Assembly: GCF_003048255.1 (NCBI RefSeq)
Contig: NZ_CP028487.1
Location: forward strand, 2,790,001-2,854,000
Direction: 5' to 3'
Source of the DNA: Yersinia massiliensis
GTDB taxonomy: Bacteria; Pseudomonadota; Gammaproteobacteria; Enterobacterales; Enterobacteriaceae
Length of the DNA: 64,000 nucleotides
Shown piece by piece: positions 17,301-60,101 of the stretch. The notes beneath the pieces were generated by a model. That model had not been told where the DNA came from and made no database searches. It saw only the letters and a program-made list of their open reading frames with translations. Made by a program: the position numbers and the translations under genes. The stretch's first letter is position 1; each line of letters starts with the position of its first letter.

Positions 17301-17464
17301 TTACATATGCTGAATAATGGCGTCGCCAAACTCACTGCATTTCAACAGTTTAGCGCCGTCCATCAGACGTTCGAAATCGTAAGTCACTGTCTTGGCCTGA
17401 ATCGCGCCTTCGGTGCCTTTGATAATTAAATCAGCCGCTTCGAACCAGCCCATATGACGCAACA
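17301..17464 (-). pseudogene. Displaced 3' end of icd (attL side)
   Basis: This stretch repeats the last 164 bases of the intact icd gene at 58718-58881. It encodes the same C-terminus, ending IIQHM, with TAA as the stop where the intact copy has TGA. There are five base differences in 164, one of them in the stop codon and the rest synonymous. It is the original chromosomal end cut off by phage integration. It has no start and cannot be expressed as a full protein. Confidence 0.95.
17428..17464. repeat. attL core (37-bp identity with attR)
   Basis: A 37-base block within the icd coding sequence is identical to 58845-58881. Upstream identity breaks at T17427 versus C58844, and downstream at G17465 versus T58882. 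Strand exchange must have occurred inside this block. The phage uses icd, the same attachment locus known for e14 and phage 21. Confidence 0.9.
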
Positions 17465-17473
17465 GTAGATAGA

Positions 17474-17521
17474 CCAAAAGCCAGTAACCACATGATTAGT
17501 AAATGGTTACTGGCTTTTTTA
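17474..17521. terminator. Strong bidirectional terminator inside attL
   Basis: A 14-bp perfect stem, AAAGCCAGTAACCA (17477-17490) with TGGTTACTGGCTTT (17504-17517), is followed by TTT on the plus strand. It insulates the phage end from the host sequence. Confidence 0.85.
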
Positions 17522-17582
17522 TTCATAAAAACCGTCAAAAAATGATGCTTGCAACCCCTTGATTATCAAGCAAAGAAAAATA

Positions 17583-17594
17583 GTTTTGCAGAAG
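17583..17594 (+). repeat. Putative integrase arm-type site
   Basis: GTTTTGCAGAAG, the same 12-mer as found twice, plus one near-copy, beside attR at 58615-58650. All copies lie in the same orientation. Positions on both arms of the reconstructed attP fit lambda-type integrase arm sites. Confidence 0.6.
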
Positions 17595-17620
17595 GGCTTT
17601 TCAACCGAAAAAGAATTCAT

Positions 17621-17640
17621 TACTGTATATACAAACAGTA
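17621..17640. promoter_or_regulatory. LexA (SOS) box
   Basis: TACTGTATATACAAACAGTA contains the full CTGT-N8-ACAG core and matches the enterobacterial LexA consensus at nearly every flanking base. It lies 20 bases before the start of the first gene of the attL operon, where LexA would block transcription. Confidence 0.9.
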
Positions 17641-17659
17641 ATAAAAATTGAGAGGCATC

Positions 17660-17935
17660 ATGGCTAGAAATCCAAAAGACGAAATTAGCGGAATGCGGGA
17701 ACTGACTTCTTTTAATACCGAGCATAGCGCCTTTGGTAAGTTCATAATCATGCGCTCATCTTTCACAGACACCCTGACTGGGTTTAGGCACATTGAGCCA
17801 GAGGTTTACCCAGACCAACAAGTCATGATTCGTTTAGATGCCGCCAAGAAGCTTATCCGCGAACTACAGAGGCGCGTGGATTACATCGAATCGGGTATTG
17901 AGGACATTAACACCAAAACCCGCTATCACAGTTGA
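17660..17935 (+). CDS. Small SOS-controlled phage protein, 91 aa
   Basis: First gene after the LexA box. It begins at ATG 17660 with GAGAGG at good spacing. The C-terminal half has an amphipathic helix (LDAAKKLIRELQRRVDYIES) resembling small prophage proteins of the BssS type, but I cannot name it securely. It precedes the DinI-like gene by 10 bases, so both should be expressed in the SOS response. It could modulate host repair or the lytic decision. Confidence 0.75.
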   Translation: MARNPKDEISGMRELTSFNTEHSAFGKFIIMRSSFTDTLTGFRHIEPEVYPDQQVMIRLDAAKKLIRELQRRVDYIESGIEDINTKTRYHS

Positions 17936-17945
17936 AGGGGGATTT

Positions 17946-18185
17946 ATGCTACGTATCGAAGTGACCGTTGATAAAACCAAGAAATTACCCGCTGGCGCTC
18001 TATCAGCACTGGCCATCGAGTTTAATGATCGCGTAAAGCGTCGCTATCCAGAGGCTGAGGCTACAATAAGATTGGCAGGTATGGACGGGTTAACTGTATT
18101 CGGTGGGTCGCCTGACGACAAAGAAGTGATTCAGGAGATTTTGCAGGAAACGTGGGAAAGCGCGGATGATTGGTTTCAGGCTTGA
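17946..18185 (+). CDS. DinI-family protein, 79 aa
   Basis: Belongs to the DinI family, which binds RecA and modulates RecA filaments and LexA/UmuD cleavage. Its N-terminus (MLRIEVTVDKTKKLPAGAL) and C-terminus (ILQETWESADDWF) follow the family's most conserved blocks. The acidic C-terminal helix that mimics DNA in DinI is present. AAGGGGG precedes the ATG. Controlled with the preceding gene by the LexA box at 17621. Prophage copies may tune the host SOS response during induction. Confidence 0.92.
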   Translation: MLRIEVTVDKTKKLPAGALSALAIEFNDRVKRRYPEAEATIRLAGMDGLTVFGGSPDDKEVIQEILQETWESADDWFQA

Positions 18186-18362
18186 ATTACTCCTATCTGG
18201 CCGGTGACACACATCGGCCATTGCTCCCTCCTGATAAATCCCCAGTATTTGTGTTACAACTTATTCGATCTATGATGCTTAAAGAAAATTAAGGTTTGGT
18301 GTCCAGAATATTTAATTGTTCACCTGACCCAAGCTAGCCCATAGACAGCTTAAGGGGGCGCA

Positions 18363-18494
18363 ATGAAAGAATATTTAGTTCCTGCAATCTTAGTTTTGGC
18401 TACTGTTTTAGTTATTTCTGCACTAATAGCTATCACTATAGCCTTGCTGGGTAATGGGATAAAAGTTGGTGATATGACCTACTACCTCAGCTAG
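18363..18494 (+). CDS. Tiny membrane protein, 43 aa
   Basis: ORF of 43 codons with an excellent AAGGGGG site before the ATG. One long hydrophobic helix (about residues 5-30) is followed by a short polar tail ending MTYYLS. No known family recognised. Together with the next tiny gene it lies directly before the Clp-fold protease gene and may act with it or as a small toxin-like peptide. Confidence 0.6.
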   Translation: MKEYLVPAILVLATVLVISALIAITIALLGNGIKVGDMTYYLS

Positions 18495-18539
18495 TACACT
18501 GCATTTGGGTTTTGCGTAAGCTAACCGACTGGAGAATAT

Positions 18540-18629
18540 ATGAAATTAAACAGCACCGTGGTTGTTATTGTCCTCATAGTTGCTGCTTTTGTGGCTGGGT
18601 ACATAGTCTCAGAGACGTTTGCTAGGTAA
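18540..18629 (+). CDS. Tiny membrane protein, 29 aa
   Basis: ORF of 29 codons preceded by CTGGAGAA. Nearly the whole peptide is one hydrophobic helix (STVVVIVLIVAAFVAGYIV) with a charged end ETFAR. The size and layout resemble hydrophobic peptides of type I toxin loci or small membrane regulators. No partner RNA is evident. Confidence 0.5.
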   Translation: MKLNSTVVVIVLIVAAFVAGYIVSETFAR

Positions 18630-18733
18630 GTTAACCCACTGCTAGCCTGTAGAGGGGTGGGAGAACAAATACAGCGAATCTGGCAAAGACCGGAGCGCGT
18701 TAAACTTTTCCAGGGACTTACTGAGAAATATAT

Positions 18734-19759
18734 ATGGCTGAAAGTGATTCTTTACTGGATAAGTTATTTACGCTTATTGACGGATTCGATGATGGAGCCG
18801 ATGTAATCCTATACAATGGTCCCATTGATAGAAATGGCTACCTGAAGATAACAAAGGCGAGCCGAAAAGCAAGTCCTGCAAGAAATGCAACGTTGATCCT
18901 CGCGACGTACGGCGGAGATCCGGATGCGGCATATCGCATAGCTAGAGCCTTACGTCACAACTATCATGAACTAACCATTATAATTCCTAGAGAGTGTAAA
19001 AGTGCCGGAACATTATTGGCAATTGGAGGTTCTAAGCTTGTAATGTGTGATATGGGTGAGCTAGGTCCATTAGACGTTCAATTACGAAAACATGATGAGA
19101 TGTTCGAAAGTAGCTCTGCTTTAGACTATTATCAAGCATTATCAGGATTACAAAGTTTTACTAAAAATGCATTCAAAGACTACCTTCTTGATATAAAATC
19201 AAGTTGTGGAATAACTGCTAAAACAGCAGCGGATTTTTCTTCGACATTGACAACCGGCCTTTTTAGTCCGATATTTCAGCAACTTGACCCAATTAAACTT
19301 GGAGAAGTCCAGAGGGCAGTACAGATTGCCGAGAAGTACGGCGAAAGACTAAATGCATATGACAAGCCGATGACCGAAGACTCACTATCCAAATTGATTG
19401 CTGGCTATCCATCACATGGATTCGTTATAGATCGGAAAGAAGCAAAAACACTATTTAATAATGTCAGTTCTCCTGACGATACAGAGCTTAAGATAGCTGC
19501 ATTTTTCAATGAAAGATTCCCACCACGCTCATATAGTAACGTAGTGTTTAATATTAGCCAGATGAAGGAGTTAAGACAACTCGCTTCAGATGAATTATCC
19601 GGGCAAAAGGATGAAGATAATGCTAAAAAAGATGATGAGAAACCAGAAAGACAAGCCTCAAGGAAAAGAAAAAGAAACCCAGCTACGCCTCGAGGAGGTA
19701 ATGCAGGTAGAGCGCAAGAAAGCAGACAACTTGATGCAGACATTAATTCAGAGCAATAA
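18734..19759 (+). CDS. Clp-fold serine protease (SDH family), accessory gene
   Basis: A 341-residue soluble protein with a crotonase/ClpP-like core at about residues 20-200, as in the serine dehydrogenase proteinase (SDH) family. Marks are ILATYGGDPDAAYRIARAL, the nucleophile Ser in CKSAGTLLAIGG, and CDMGELGPLDVQ. The tail is highly charged and ends in Lys/Arg-rich stretches. Not a structural phage gene: it sits between attL and the tail fibre, has its own terminator, and is likely a lysogenic accessory gene. A role in phage exclusion is only a guess. Confidence 0.75.
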   Translation: MAESDSLLDKLFTLIDGFDDGADVILYNGPIDRNGYLKITKASRKASPARNATLILATYGGDPDAAYRIARALRHNYHELTIIIPRECKSAGTLLAIGGSKLVMCDMGELGPLDVQLRKHDEMFESSSALDYYQALSGLQSFTKNAFKDYLLDIKSSCGITAKTAADFSSTLTTGLFSPIFQQLDPIKLGEVQRAVQIAEKYGERLNAYDKPMTEDSLSKLIAGYPSHGFVIDRKEAKTLFNNVSSPDDTELKIAAFFNERFPPRSYSNVVFNISQMKELRQLASDELSGQKDEDNAKKDDEKPERQASRKRKRNPATPRGGNAGRAQESRQLDADINSEQ

Positions 19760-19798
19760 AAGCAAAGCGATGGACTACCTCTCATTCTGATAAGCTTA

Positions 19799-19826
19799 AC
19801 CCGGCCACGCTGCCGGGTTTTTTGTG
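19799..19826 (+). terminator. Terminator after the protease gene
   Basis: ACCCGGC (19799-19805) pairs with GCCGGGT (19812-19818), followed by TTTTT. Confidence 0.8.
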
Positions 19827-19908
19827 CCTGTAATCTTGCTATGTTGCAAAAGTGTTACCATAATCAAATTGCAACACCAGAGATTGCCTTGCTCAACATT
19901 GCTTCTTT

Positions 19909-19938
19909 AGCCCACATAGCCTCACGTGGGCTTTTTTG
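19909..19938 (+). terminator. Second plus-strand terminator
   Basis: AGCCCAC (19909-19915) pairs with GTGGGCT (19926-19932), followed by TTTTTG. With the one at 19799 it forms a double stop against transcription entering the convergent tail genes. Confidence 0.75.
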
Positions 19939-20000
19939 TGCCTAGAATAGACCGGGCCATTAAGCCCGGTTTGTATTTTATAAATCTGATAAATCTCAAC

Positions 20001-20035
20001 GATCGTTTTAAACGATCAATCTTTCATTATTGATC
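20001..20035. repeat. Two overlapping palindromes
   Basis: GATCGTTTTAAACGATC (20001-20017) is a perfect palindrome around one central base. Its last GATC starts a second inverted repeat, GATCAAT (20014-20020) with ATTGATC (20029-20035). It lies about 90 bases before a small plus-strand gene. It may be an operator or an alternative hairpin. Confidence 0.5.
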
Positions 20036-20125
20036 TGCCGAACCAATTTGAAAGCCTCAGACGAATCCCCTTATCCTTGTTGCACCCTTAAGTCATGGTC
20101 ATACCGTAAGGATAAACTCGTCGTG

Positions 20126-20335
20126 ATGAAGTGGAAATTAATGAAGGGAGCTGAAGATGATTTTATCCGCGCCCCCCAATGGGCCAAACGTTTAATCAAT
20201 AGCGATGGCAGAATTTTGTGGTGGGACGGGATGAGAAAATTCAAACCAATAGATGGTAGTGAATTCATACTCTCCGATCGATTTGAAGATGACTATCGGT
20301 TAATTGCAGAACGAAGGTTAGTACCTAGAGTTTAA
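20126..20335 (+). CDS. Small phage protein, 69 aa, unknown
   Basis: Plus-strand gene facing the late operon. The frame is open from 20030, but ATG 20126 after AAGGA is more plausible. The product is rich in Trp and charged residues (INSDGRILWWDGMRKF). No family recognised. It is likely a separately expressed accessory gene. Confidence 0.5.
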   Translation: MKWKLMKGAEDDFIRAPQWAKRLINSDGRILWWDGMRKFKPIDGSEFILSDRFEDDYRLIAERRLVPRV

Positions 20336-20479
20336 TTTCCGGGCCAAATAAGCCCAGTTTTATTTTACAACCAACTCAATGGGCATCCCTGCCCTATCAA
20401 ATCCTACCCCCTATCATTCTCTATACATGGACACCAACACCATCGCGGGGTTTAATCCACATTCGTGCCGCGCCTGATT

Positions 20480-57251: not shown

Positions 57252-57486
57252 AACACAGACACTAAAGGCTTGGGCCGCTGATGAGTTCGACGAACCAATC
57301 CCCAGTTATCCAACGTTACTAAAATATGCGCAACATGGCATGATATCTCCGCCACCTTTTAAGGCTGGCAAGTGCTGGCGGGTTGACAAGAATGCCCGAT
57401 TCGTCGGTGTGACCGTCAAGCCGGTAGTGAGAAAAGATGATGATCCACGGTTGAAGAGGATAATGGAAGATGGCCAGACCTCGTAA
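57244..57486 (+). CDS. Excisionase (Xis-like, DUF1233)
   Basis: 80 residues, strong AAGGAGACATC site. Winged-helix pattern KAWAADEFDEPIPSYPTLLK, wing PPPFKAGKCWRV and a Lys/Arg-rich end. Position immediately before, and 17 bases overlapping, the integrase gene fits a recombination directionality factor. Confidence 0.82.
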   Translation: MARTQTLKAWAADEFDEPIPSYPTLLKYAQHGMISPPPFKAGKCWRVDKNARFVGVTVKPVVRKDDDPRLKRIMEDGQTS

Positions 57487-58594
57487 GTACAACATAAATG
57501 TACCAGGTCTATCATGCTATACAGACGCCAGAACCAAAAAGGTCTACTGGCGTTATAAGCATCCTGTATCAGGGAAATTTCATGGTTTAGGTGATGATGA
57601 GGCGGCGGCAAAGGCTATCGCTATTGAAGCTAATAGTCGCTTTGCTAGTCAGCAAATGGGGCAATTACTAAAGGCGCGAGATGAAATCAGTCTCAAAACC
57701 GGTAAGGCCATAACGGTAACAACTTGGTTGGATCGTTATCTCGCAATCCAACAAGAACGTTACGATAGTGAGGAAATAAAACTCAACACACTTAAGCAAA
57801 AAAGTGCGCCTGTTGAGGCATTCAGGCGTCATTGCGGAATGTTGACCCTTCCTGATGTTGGGGCTAGAGATATAGCTTCTGTGATTGAAGAATATAAAGA
57901 CAAGGGACAAAAACGGATGGCGCAAGTTGTTCGAATGGTTCTGATCGATGTGTATAAAGAGGCTCAACATGCTGGGGAGGTTCCACCTGGTTACAATCCG
58001 GCGTTGGCCACCAAGCAACCAGCAAACAAAGTTACCCGTGTTCGTTTGAATTTTGATGAATGGGAATCAATTTTTAATGCCGCCGCTAATATGCAAGGCT
58101 ATATCCAAAATGCAATGCTCCTTGCTTTGGTTACTGGTCAGCGTTTAGGGGATATCGCTGACATGAAATTTAGCGATGTTTGGGATAATCACCTCCATAT
58201 CGTGCAAGGAAAAACTGGCACCAGAATAGCAATACCAATAAGCCTGAAGTGTGAGTCTGTTGGTTATACGCTGCAAGATGTTATCGCACGATGTCGTGAC
58301 ATGATAGTCAGTCCATACATGCTTCACTATCACCATACAACATCAATGGCTAAGCGCGGGGGGCAAGTATCAAGTAATGCGATCACTACGGGCTTCTCAT
58401 CAGCAAGGGATAAAAGCAATTTGGATTGGAAAGACGGTACCCCACCTACATTTCACGAACAGCGATCATTATCTGAGAGGCTATACCGCGAACAAGGGGT
58501 AGATACTAAGACATTACTTGGTCATAAAAACCAAGCGATGACCGACAAATATAATGATGACCGAGGCAAGGAATGGCTAGTTTTAGCTGTATAA
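57470..58594 (+). CDS. int: Tyrosine-family integrase
   Basis: 374 residues. N-terminal arm-binding domain opens RPRKYNINVPGLSCYTD, a pattern shared with lambda-type integrases. Catalytic residues visible: Arg225 (TGQRLGD), Lys248, His329 and Arg332 (HEQR), His352 (GHK), and nucleophile Tyr361 (DKYND). The C-terminus is short. It directs integration into icd; the arm repeats downstream are probably its binding sites. The attR site begins about 120 bases past the stop. Confidence 0.95.
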   Translation: MARPRKYNINVPGLSCYTDARTKKVYWRYKHPVSGKFHGLGDDEAAAKAIAIEANSRFASQQMGQLLKARDEISLKTGKAITVTTWLDRYLAIQQERYDSEEIKLNTLKQKSAPVEAFRRHCGMLTLPDVGARDIASVIEEYKDKGQKRMAQVVRMVLIDVYKEAQHAGEVPPGYNPALATKQPANKVTRVRLNFDEWESIFNAAANMQGYIQNAMLLALVTGQRLGDIADMKFSDVWDNHLHIVQGKTGTRIAIPISLKCESVGYTLQDVIARCRDMIVSPYMLHYHHTTSMAKRGGQVSSNAITTGFSSARDKSNLDWKDGTPPTFHEQRSLSERLYREQGVDTKTLLGHKNQAMTDKYNDDRGKEWLVLAV

Positions 58595-58717: not shown

Positions 58718-59971
58718 TCACATATGTTGAATAATGGCGTCGCCAAATTCACTGCATTTCAACAGTTTAGCGCCGTCCATCAGACGTTCGAAATCGTAAG
58801 TCACTGTCTTGGCCTGAATAGCGCCTTCGGTGCCTTTGATAATCAAATCAGCCGCTTCGAACCAGCCCATATGACGCAACATCATTTCAGCTGACAGAAT
58901 GATAGAACCAGGGTTCACTTTATCTTGACCAGCATATTTTGGCGCTGTGCCGTGTGTCGCTTCGAACAACGCGCACTCATCACCGATGTTCGCACCTGGA
59001 GCAATACCAATACCGCCAACCTGCGCTGCCAATGCATCAGAAATATAATCGCCGTTCAAGTTCATACACGCGATAACATCATATTCCGCAGGACGCAGCA
59101 GAATTTGTTGCAGGAAAGCATCTGCAATCACATCTTTTACGATGATATCTTTGCCGTTATTTGGGTTCTTGATTTTAACCCAAGGGCCGCCATCGATTAG
59201 CTCACCACCAAATTCCTCACGCGCCAACTGGTAACCCCAGTCCTTAAATGCGCCTTCAGTGAATTTCATAATGTTGCCTTTATGAACCAGCGTCACAGAT
59301 TCACGATCATTGGTAATTGCATACTCGATCGCTGCACGAACCAAACGCTTGGTTCCTTCTTCTGAACAGGGTTTTACACCGATACCACATTGTTCGGGGA
59401 AGCGGATTTTTTTGACGCCCATTTCTTCACGCAGGAATTTGATGACTTTTTCGGCTTCTGGTGAACCGGCTTTCCATTCGATACCCGCATAGATGTCTTC
59501 TGCGTTTTCGCGGAAAATCACCATGTTAGTCAATTCAGGATGTTTAACTGGGCTTGGCGTGCCTTCGTAATAACGTACTGGGCGCAGACACACGTACAAA
59601 TCGAGTTGTTGACGTAAAGCAACGTTTAAAGAGCGAATCCCACCGCCAACTGGCGTGGTTAATGGACCTTTAATCGCAACACGGTAGTCACGAATGAGAT
59701 CCAACGTTTCTTCTGGCAACCAAACGTCTTTCCCGTAGACATGCGTTGATTTTTCACCGGTATAGATTTCCATCCAAGAGATTTTACGCTCACCCTTGTA
59801 GGCTTTCTTAACCGCAGCATCGACTACGTTAATCATGGCTGGCGTCACATCAACGCCAATACCGTCACCTTCAATAAATGGAATGATCGGATTAAGCGGA
59901 ACAACCAGTTTACCCTGAGCATCGACAGTAATTTTCTTACCTTCTGCCGGAACTACTACTTTGCTTTCCAT
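58718..59971 (-). CDS. icd: Isocitrate dehydrogenase (NADP), phage-restored 3' end
   Basis: TCA-cycle enzyme converting isocitrate to 2-oxoglutarate with NADPH. Active-site loop [17 protein letters not shown] and the NAD(P)-type [20 protein letters not shown] [15 protein letters not shown] are clear, and the phosphorylatable Ser lies in the GGIRSLN segment. 417 residues, matching E. coli. Start is ATG 59971 after AAGGAGAGGTT; the longer frame upstream is not used. The last ~50 codons come from the phage and encode the same protein as the displaced host end. Confidence 0.97.
58845..58881. repeat. attR core (37-bp identity with attL)
   Basis: Identical to 17428-17464. Lies inside icd, so the phage supplies the downstream coding part. 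Confidence 0.9.
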
Positions 59972-60101
59972 CAACCTCTCCTTCAGCGCAATTTTGTTAA
60001 TGCCTTGTAAGATTCGTGTCAATACTACTTGAATATTCGTTCCACGCCAATCCGAAACGGATTGAGGTATAATGCGCTAATCATTCGAAATCGCAATAAT
60101 C

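Follow-up and report, generated by a model that had tools for sequence, protein, structure and literature searches.

The window analysed here, a 64,000-nucleotide stretch of the Yersinia massiliensis genome (contig NZ_CP028487.1, positions 2,790,001 to 2,854,000), contains a prophage integrated in icd, at the edge of which an SDH-type Clp-fold serine protease of 341 aa (18734..19759, + strand) forms the cargo of a cassette enclosed by two short conserved elements, L and R. The body of this cassette differs from one prophage to the next, and the breakpoints fall at L and R. Elsewhere the cargo between these elements is a wide range of unrelated genes, including some known from phage defence, and we therefore suggest that the cassette is swappable and probably carries anti-phage genes, the protease being one putative effector. 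A preliminary description had proposed an accessory module at the prophage edge, made up of two tiny membrane peptides, the protease and two terminators; such a module is supported and all of these parts exist, the first terminator being element R. The flanking elements as such were absent from that account.

Two short elements bound the cassette

Element L, the left cassette edge, spans about 30 bp (18631..18661, + strand) and shows two mismatches to CTGCTAGCCCATAGAGGGGTGGG at 18639-18661. In the 25 genus genomes, which constitute the unbiased sample, a search with 23 nt taken from the junction ahead of the protease, allowing up to three mismatches, matched at 16 places (eight of them exact) in 12 genomes; the reversed-pattern control gave no match. 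Two overlapping exact patterns of L retrieved 44 and 54 viral-contig stretches. The non-identical loci with L in Yersinia-type prophages number 71; conservation of L in the viral loci is partly by construction, since these were chosen by exact match. Outside the genus, L was seen in 3 of 295 sampled family genomes, all in one genus of 154 sampled, with one reversed-control match in the same scan (genome G634). It is absent from E. coli genomes at an E-value of 0.5, and in the phage collection it occurs, at 0.05, in a single record, that of Yersinia phage vB_YenM_30.14, which infects Yersinia enterocolitica.

A gene upstream of L, identified for 65 loci, is repressor-type in 49, DinI in 7 and of another kind in 9; among 29 representatives, 19 match Peptidase_S24 and four DinI. 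In 24 of the 49 repressor loci, 7 nt separate the end of the repressor's last sense codon from the L pattern, and the stop codon therefore lies inside element L, while the distance to L is 155-168 nt in 14 of the 49. An RNA hairpin in L (-12.6 kcal/mol) was rejected, as its z-score of -1.4 does not go beyond composition.

Element R (19797..19834, + strand, about 40 bp) is both a terminator and the right cassette edge. It is a common terminator, AACCCGGCCCCGCTGCCGGGTTTTTTGTGCCTGTAATC, reached via 20-mers shared downstream of L. R played no part in selecting the L loci and is found in 48 of the 71, at 817-2795 bp from L and together with 26 cargo families; 20 of the 23 loci without it hold less than 3 kb downstream. 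A search starting from R gave 61 stretches, of which 42 have L upstream, 12 hold less than 2 kb and 7 lack L (opposite-strand control, 0 of 61), and, judged by their ORFs (open reading frames), six of the latter seven lie after a repressor and one after DinI. R is present at 15 places in 10 of the 25 genus genomes (control, 0), and outside the genus in 2 of 119 sampled genomes, belonging to the same genus as the L matches, of 118 sampled. L (18631) and R (19797) both start with CTAACCC in most loci and differ beyond it.

The edges of L and R coincide with the points at which similarity between prophages stops. In 19 pairs of loci that are near-identical left of L and carry different cargo, similarity runs as far as the right edge of L (+16 to +25), and in 31 pairs that are near-identical right of R and carry different cargo, it reaches only to the left edge of R (-20 to -10); a single pair (L196/L238) matches on both sides of the cassette. 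Conversely, where the same cargo sits in another backbone, similarity stops at the outer edges, namely at -10 to +1 of L in 13 of 14 pairs and at +26 to +35 of R in 8 of 10. These breakpoints are as predicted by exchange inside L and R. Exchange likely proceeds by homologous recombination within the 30-40 bp blocks, through phage or host recombinases, and the block lengths would suit Red-type recombination.

A second L-R pair occurs in the same genome outside the window (L195; G000:C1:1955840-1957611), with L directly after a 249-aa repressor-type gene and a cargo protein of 281 aa that has no assigned family. A piece at and after the LexA-type repressor of an E. coli locus (L007, 7640-7760) is common to 631 of 5426 genomes and is followed by varying genes, such as HigBA in L269 and DUF3024 in L271; part of it resembles the 3' end of lambda cI (QWPEETFG). 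It was considered as an analogue of L and rejected, as it is not L-like.

Cargo of the cassette

Under a loose threshold, the 68 cargo proteins of the L loci form 32 families. Among 46 cargo representatives, Pfam identified P63C in six and HipA_2, DUF6932 and SDH_protease in two each, with RexA, HigB, NYN, AAA and others as single members. Of 118 PADLOC models matched by the cargo, the 25 listed include PDC-S42 (three matches), BstA, PDC-M63A and PDC-M66A (two each), and RexA and others (one each). Ten cargo proteins were scanned singly; among them, L237 matched BstA, L183 matched PDC-S42 and L234 matched a PtuA/GajA-like ATPase. As a control, 46 further ORFs of matched length from the same loci, some of which may not be genes, matched methyltransferase, homing-endonuclease and DrmD-type models among the 25 listed of 34, and no BstA, RexA or PDC model was among these. 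One repressor cluster of eight loci bears eight cargo clusters, and some cargo clusters occur after three repressor clusters.

The protease and its relatives

The protease matches SDH_protease (PF01972) with 38.4 bits, above the curated cut-off of 31.3, and falls far below that of the NCBIfam equivalog NF047768 for SDH family Clp fold serine proteinases (48.9 against 250). It is soluble, has no membrane segment and holds the conserved nucleophile Ser of the Clp fold. Its active site would comprise Ser90 and probably His228 and Asp114, residues that are nearly invariant, being retained in 235-236 of 237 family sequences; on the basis of this conservation the protein would be catalytically active. 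No relative of solved structure was found by sequence up to an E-value of 1. The best PHROG match is phrog_21683 (function unknown; E-value 6.2e-98), and a role as head-maturation protease was rejected, such PHROG matches being weak, at best 0.0069. In another locus (L231, 867-1874) the cassette, again after dinI, carries an SDH-type protease of 336 aa that is a distant relative (23% identical).

A sequence search gave 1825 relatives at an E-value of 0.001, among them a 97% identical protease labelled Yersinia enterocolitica. They are nevertheless sparse: DNA searches place them in 28 of the 5426 E. coli genomes, and a sample of 394 genomes from the order has 3 carriers, its own genome included. 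By DNA, among the matches listed in the 25 genus genomes, the protease occurs in its own genome only. To place these relatives, 170 loci were grouped into 121 clusters, 115 of them with a usable upstream neighbour. This neighbour is a same-strand repressor in 19 of the 115, against 4 of 676 controls, drawn from the remaining genes of the same loci that encode 150 aa or more (Fisher p 1.7e-13). Behind repressors stand 17 of the 45 clusters from phage, plasmid, viral-contig and E. coli loci. For example, relatives of the protease follow a LexA-type repressor in E. coli (L007) and DinI at prophage edges (L008, L009), and stand beside a zot gene on a plasmid with phage-like genes (L011); in E. coli LD67-1, one (WP_001084325.1) is flanked by cI and N. 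The window protease itself lies after dinI and not directly behind a repressor.

Proposed role and alternative explanations

We consider it moderately likely that the module acts as a portable cargo cassette of prophages, and that its protease is made in the lysogen and stops other phages. Such a cassette would consist of element L, one gene or a short operon, and element R as terminator, and would be placed after a gene active in the lysogen or during SOS, mostly the repressor and here dinI. Behind a repressor it would be transcribed in the lysogen, with transcription ending at R. The gene order after attL in the window is a BssS-like ORF, the DinI-like gene (17946..18185, + strand; PF06183, E-value 5.7e-23), which would be the lysogen/SOS gene preceding the cargo slot, two hydrophobic ORFs (43 aa and 29 aa), and the protease. 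A putative LexA-box-like site, CTGTATATACAAACAG (17623..17638, strand unspecified), read from the sequence against the LexA consensus, lies upstream of the BssS-like ORF and dinI. SOS read-through from dinI may be possible in view of this site and because no terminator-like site is among those predicted between dinI and the protease. Of the two signals that mark a phage moron, a terminator of its own is present as R, and no convincing promoter was seen ahead of the protease ORF. On infection by another phage, the protease would cut a phage or host protein and the infection would stop. With BstA and RexA as fellow cargo, the recurrent place behind repressors and the intact active site, an anti-phage role is the most likely one for the protease.

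Several observations weigh against this interpretation. PADLOC has no model for the protease, and 7 of the 10 singly scanned cargo proteins have no PADLOC match at an E-value of 1e-5. Three loci (L213, L244, L248) hold at least 3 kb downstream of L and lack R, and the locus pairs of the breakpoint analysis are not independent. The protease clusters without a repressor upstream have DinI (2), another same-strand gene (62) or another arrangement (32), and just 2 of the 70 genome-contig clusters lie behind a repressor.

A bolder version would make L and R the recognition ends of a dedicated, integron-like system by which Yersinia prophages would exchange single defence genes between repressor and dinI slots, the membrane peptides a second, stackable class of cassette, and SDH Clp-fold proteases a new class of proteolytic anti-phage effector. 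We regard it as rather unlikely. Integron cassettes are defined by an integron integrase and by similar recombination sites at the two ends; L and R share the CTAACCC start and differ beyond it.

Alternatively, the protease could serve host-protein quality control or stress survival as a fitness gene devoid of any anti-phage role. The Clp fold would suit this, as would the finding that relatives also occur in genome contigs across many phyla and for the most part do not follow repressors; the sporadic distribution and the slot in common with defence genes argue against it, and we consider it unlikely. It is distinctly unlikely that the protease serves its own prophage, cutting the repressor or another lysogeny protein and so tuning induction. 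The location beside repressors or DinI is compatible with this, as is a relative that adjoins an XRE regulator and an ImmA/IrrE-type metallopeptidase (L010). However, the slot is shared with many unrelated genes, BstA and RexA included, and one cargo may follow up to three repressor clusters, which argues that there is no fixed repressor partner.

The small membrane peptides and other neighbouring features

Two membrane peptides precede the cassette on the + strand, one of 43 aa (18363..18494, MKEY family) behind a variant of the core CTAGCCCATAGA, and one of 29 aa (18540..18629, MKINST/MKLNST family). A copy or variant of CTAACCCACTGCTAGCCCATAG with a ribosome site precedes many MKEY/MKAY/MKKH/MKNY peptides. 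Judged by the ratio of nonsynonymous to synonymous changes (pN/pS), these peptides are real genes: four families gave 0.28 (the 43-aa peptide), 0.19 (the 29-aa peptide), 0.36 and 0.55, with 7, 5, 4 and 5 distinct members, respectively, summed over pairs that are not independent. Peptide DNA recurs in the genus at ORF boundaries without the protease, ahead of other genes. With the patterns used, such a peptide lies within 480 nt upstream in 24 of the 71 L loci and is found in none of the other 47. Each type accompanies two to eight cargo families, and a bond to one cargo family was therefore rejected.

The preliminary description had linked the three genes into a possible defence or signalling unit, for which the tiny ORFs should be conserved beside related proteases. 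They are not enriched there: tiny hydrophobic ORFs with a ribosome site accompany 2 of 114 protease clusters against 7 of 637 controls, where the detector overlooked the 29-aa ORF of locus L006, so that the true count is at least one higher than 2. A joint unit is thus very improbable and was rejected in spite of the adjacency here and, for the 29-aa peptide, in L006 and L241, since peptides occur without the protease and an 87% identical protease follows a repressor without a peptide (L003/L004). A defence role survives as the best guess for the protease, and its union with the peptides does not. Lacking general enrichment upstream of the protease and recurring without it, the peptides are separate small cassettes stacked ahead of the cargo, and we would guess at a minor membrane role. 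A type I toxin-antitoxin peptide of the TisB kind would have an antisense RNA regulator; an Rfam scan of 17480-20400 found no RNA family at its cut-off, though a novel RNA may be encoded there.

The prophage lies between a copy of the icd 3' end (17301-17477) and icd itself (58718-60022), with its integrase at 57470-58594. The stretch 3' of dinI at 18224-18292 (CCCAGTATTTGTGTTACAACTTATTCGATCTATGATG), possibly a promoter, recurs after other dinI genes of the genus and elsewhere in the same genome. Outside the cassette are the second terminator-like stem with a T tail (19918..19937, + strand) and, between the terminators and the tail-fibre gene, a 70-aa ORF (20123-20335, + strand) without a confident family match.

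Relation to known systems and significance

In lambda, rexAB lies between cI and N, the place that the protease of E. coli LD67-1 occupies; the protease has no similarity to RexA or RexB, and elsewhere the slot carries a RexA relative. Lit of E. coli, whose prophage e14 likewise sits in icd, is also a protease and acts in phage exclusion; its protein family differs from that of the window protease. Lit is reported to cleave EF-Tu on activation by a T4 capsid peptide (PMC9712102). BstA of Salmonella prophage BTP1 resembles relatives of the protease in being encoded by one prophage gene that follows the repressor; Owen et al. (PMC8585504) describe this cI-n region as a mosaic hotspot. BstA is unrelated to the protease in sequence, and the window protease follows dinI instead; L-R cassettes also carry BstA relatives as cargo. 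The window protease also stands apart from SDH-type, 1510-N and ClpP proteases, being soluble and far under the NF047768 cut-off. Short conserved sequences at the junctions of phage mosaics were proposed as recombination points (PMC3029335); L and R resemble such boundary sequences, but are paired, enclose single cargo genes and occupy two prophage sites.

A hotspot behind the prophage repressor and boundary sequences as exchange points are thus already known. Open-licence literature, searched by title and the beginning of the abstract, contained nothing on the protease in phages or defence or on a repressor-slot hotspot in Yersinia, and an accessory-gene screen (PMC12373910) has no protease terms. 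Within these searches, the paired L-R cassette, its second home after dinI and SDH proteases as cargo were not found and are apparently new.

Both ends of this variable cargo are fixed short sequences and hence directly searchable. The L and R motifs retrieve cargo genes of unknown function that share the slot with BstA and RexA, which yields a candidate list of new anti-phage genes, and whether short boundary sequences drive the exchange of modules becomes testable. The protease would represent an effector class absent from the PADLOC library used here.
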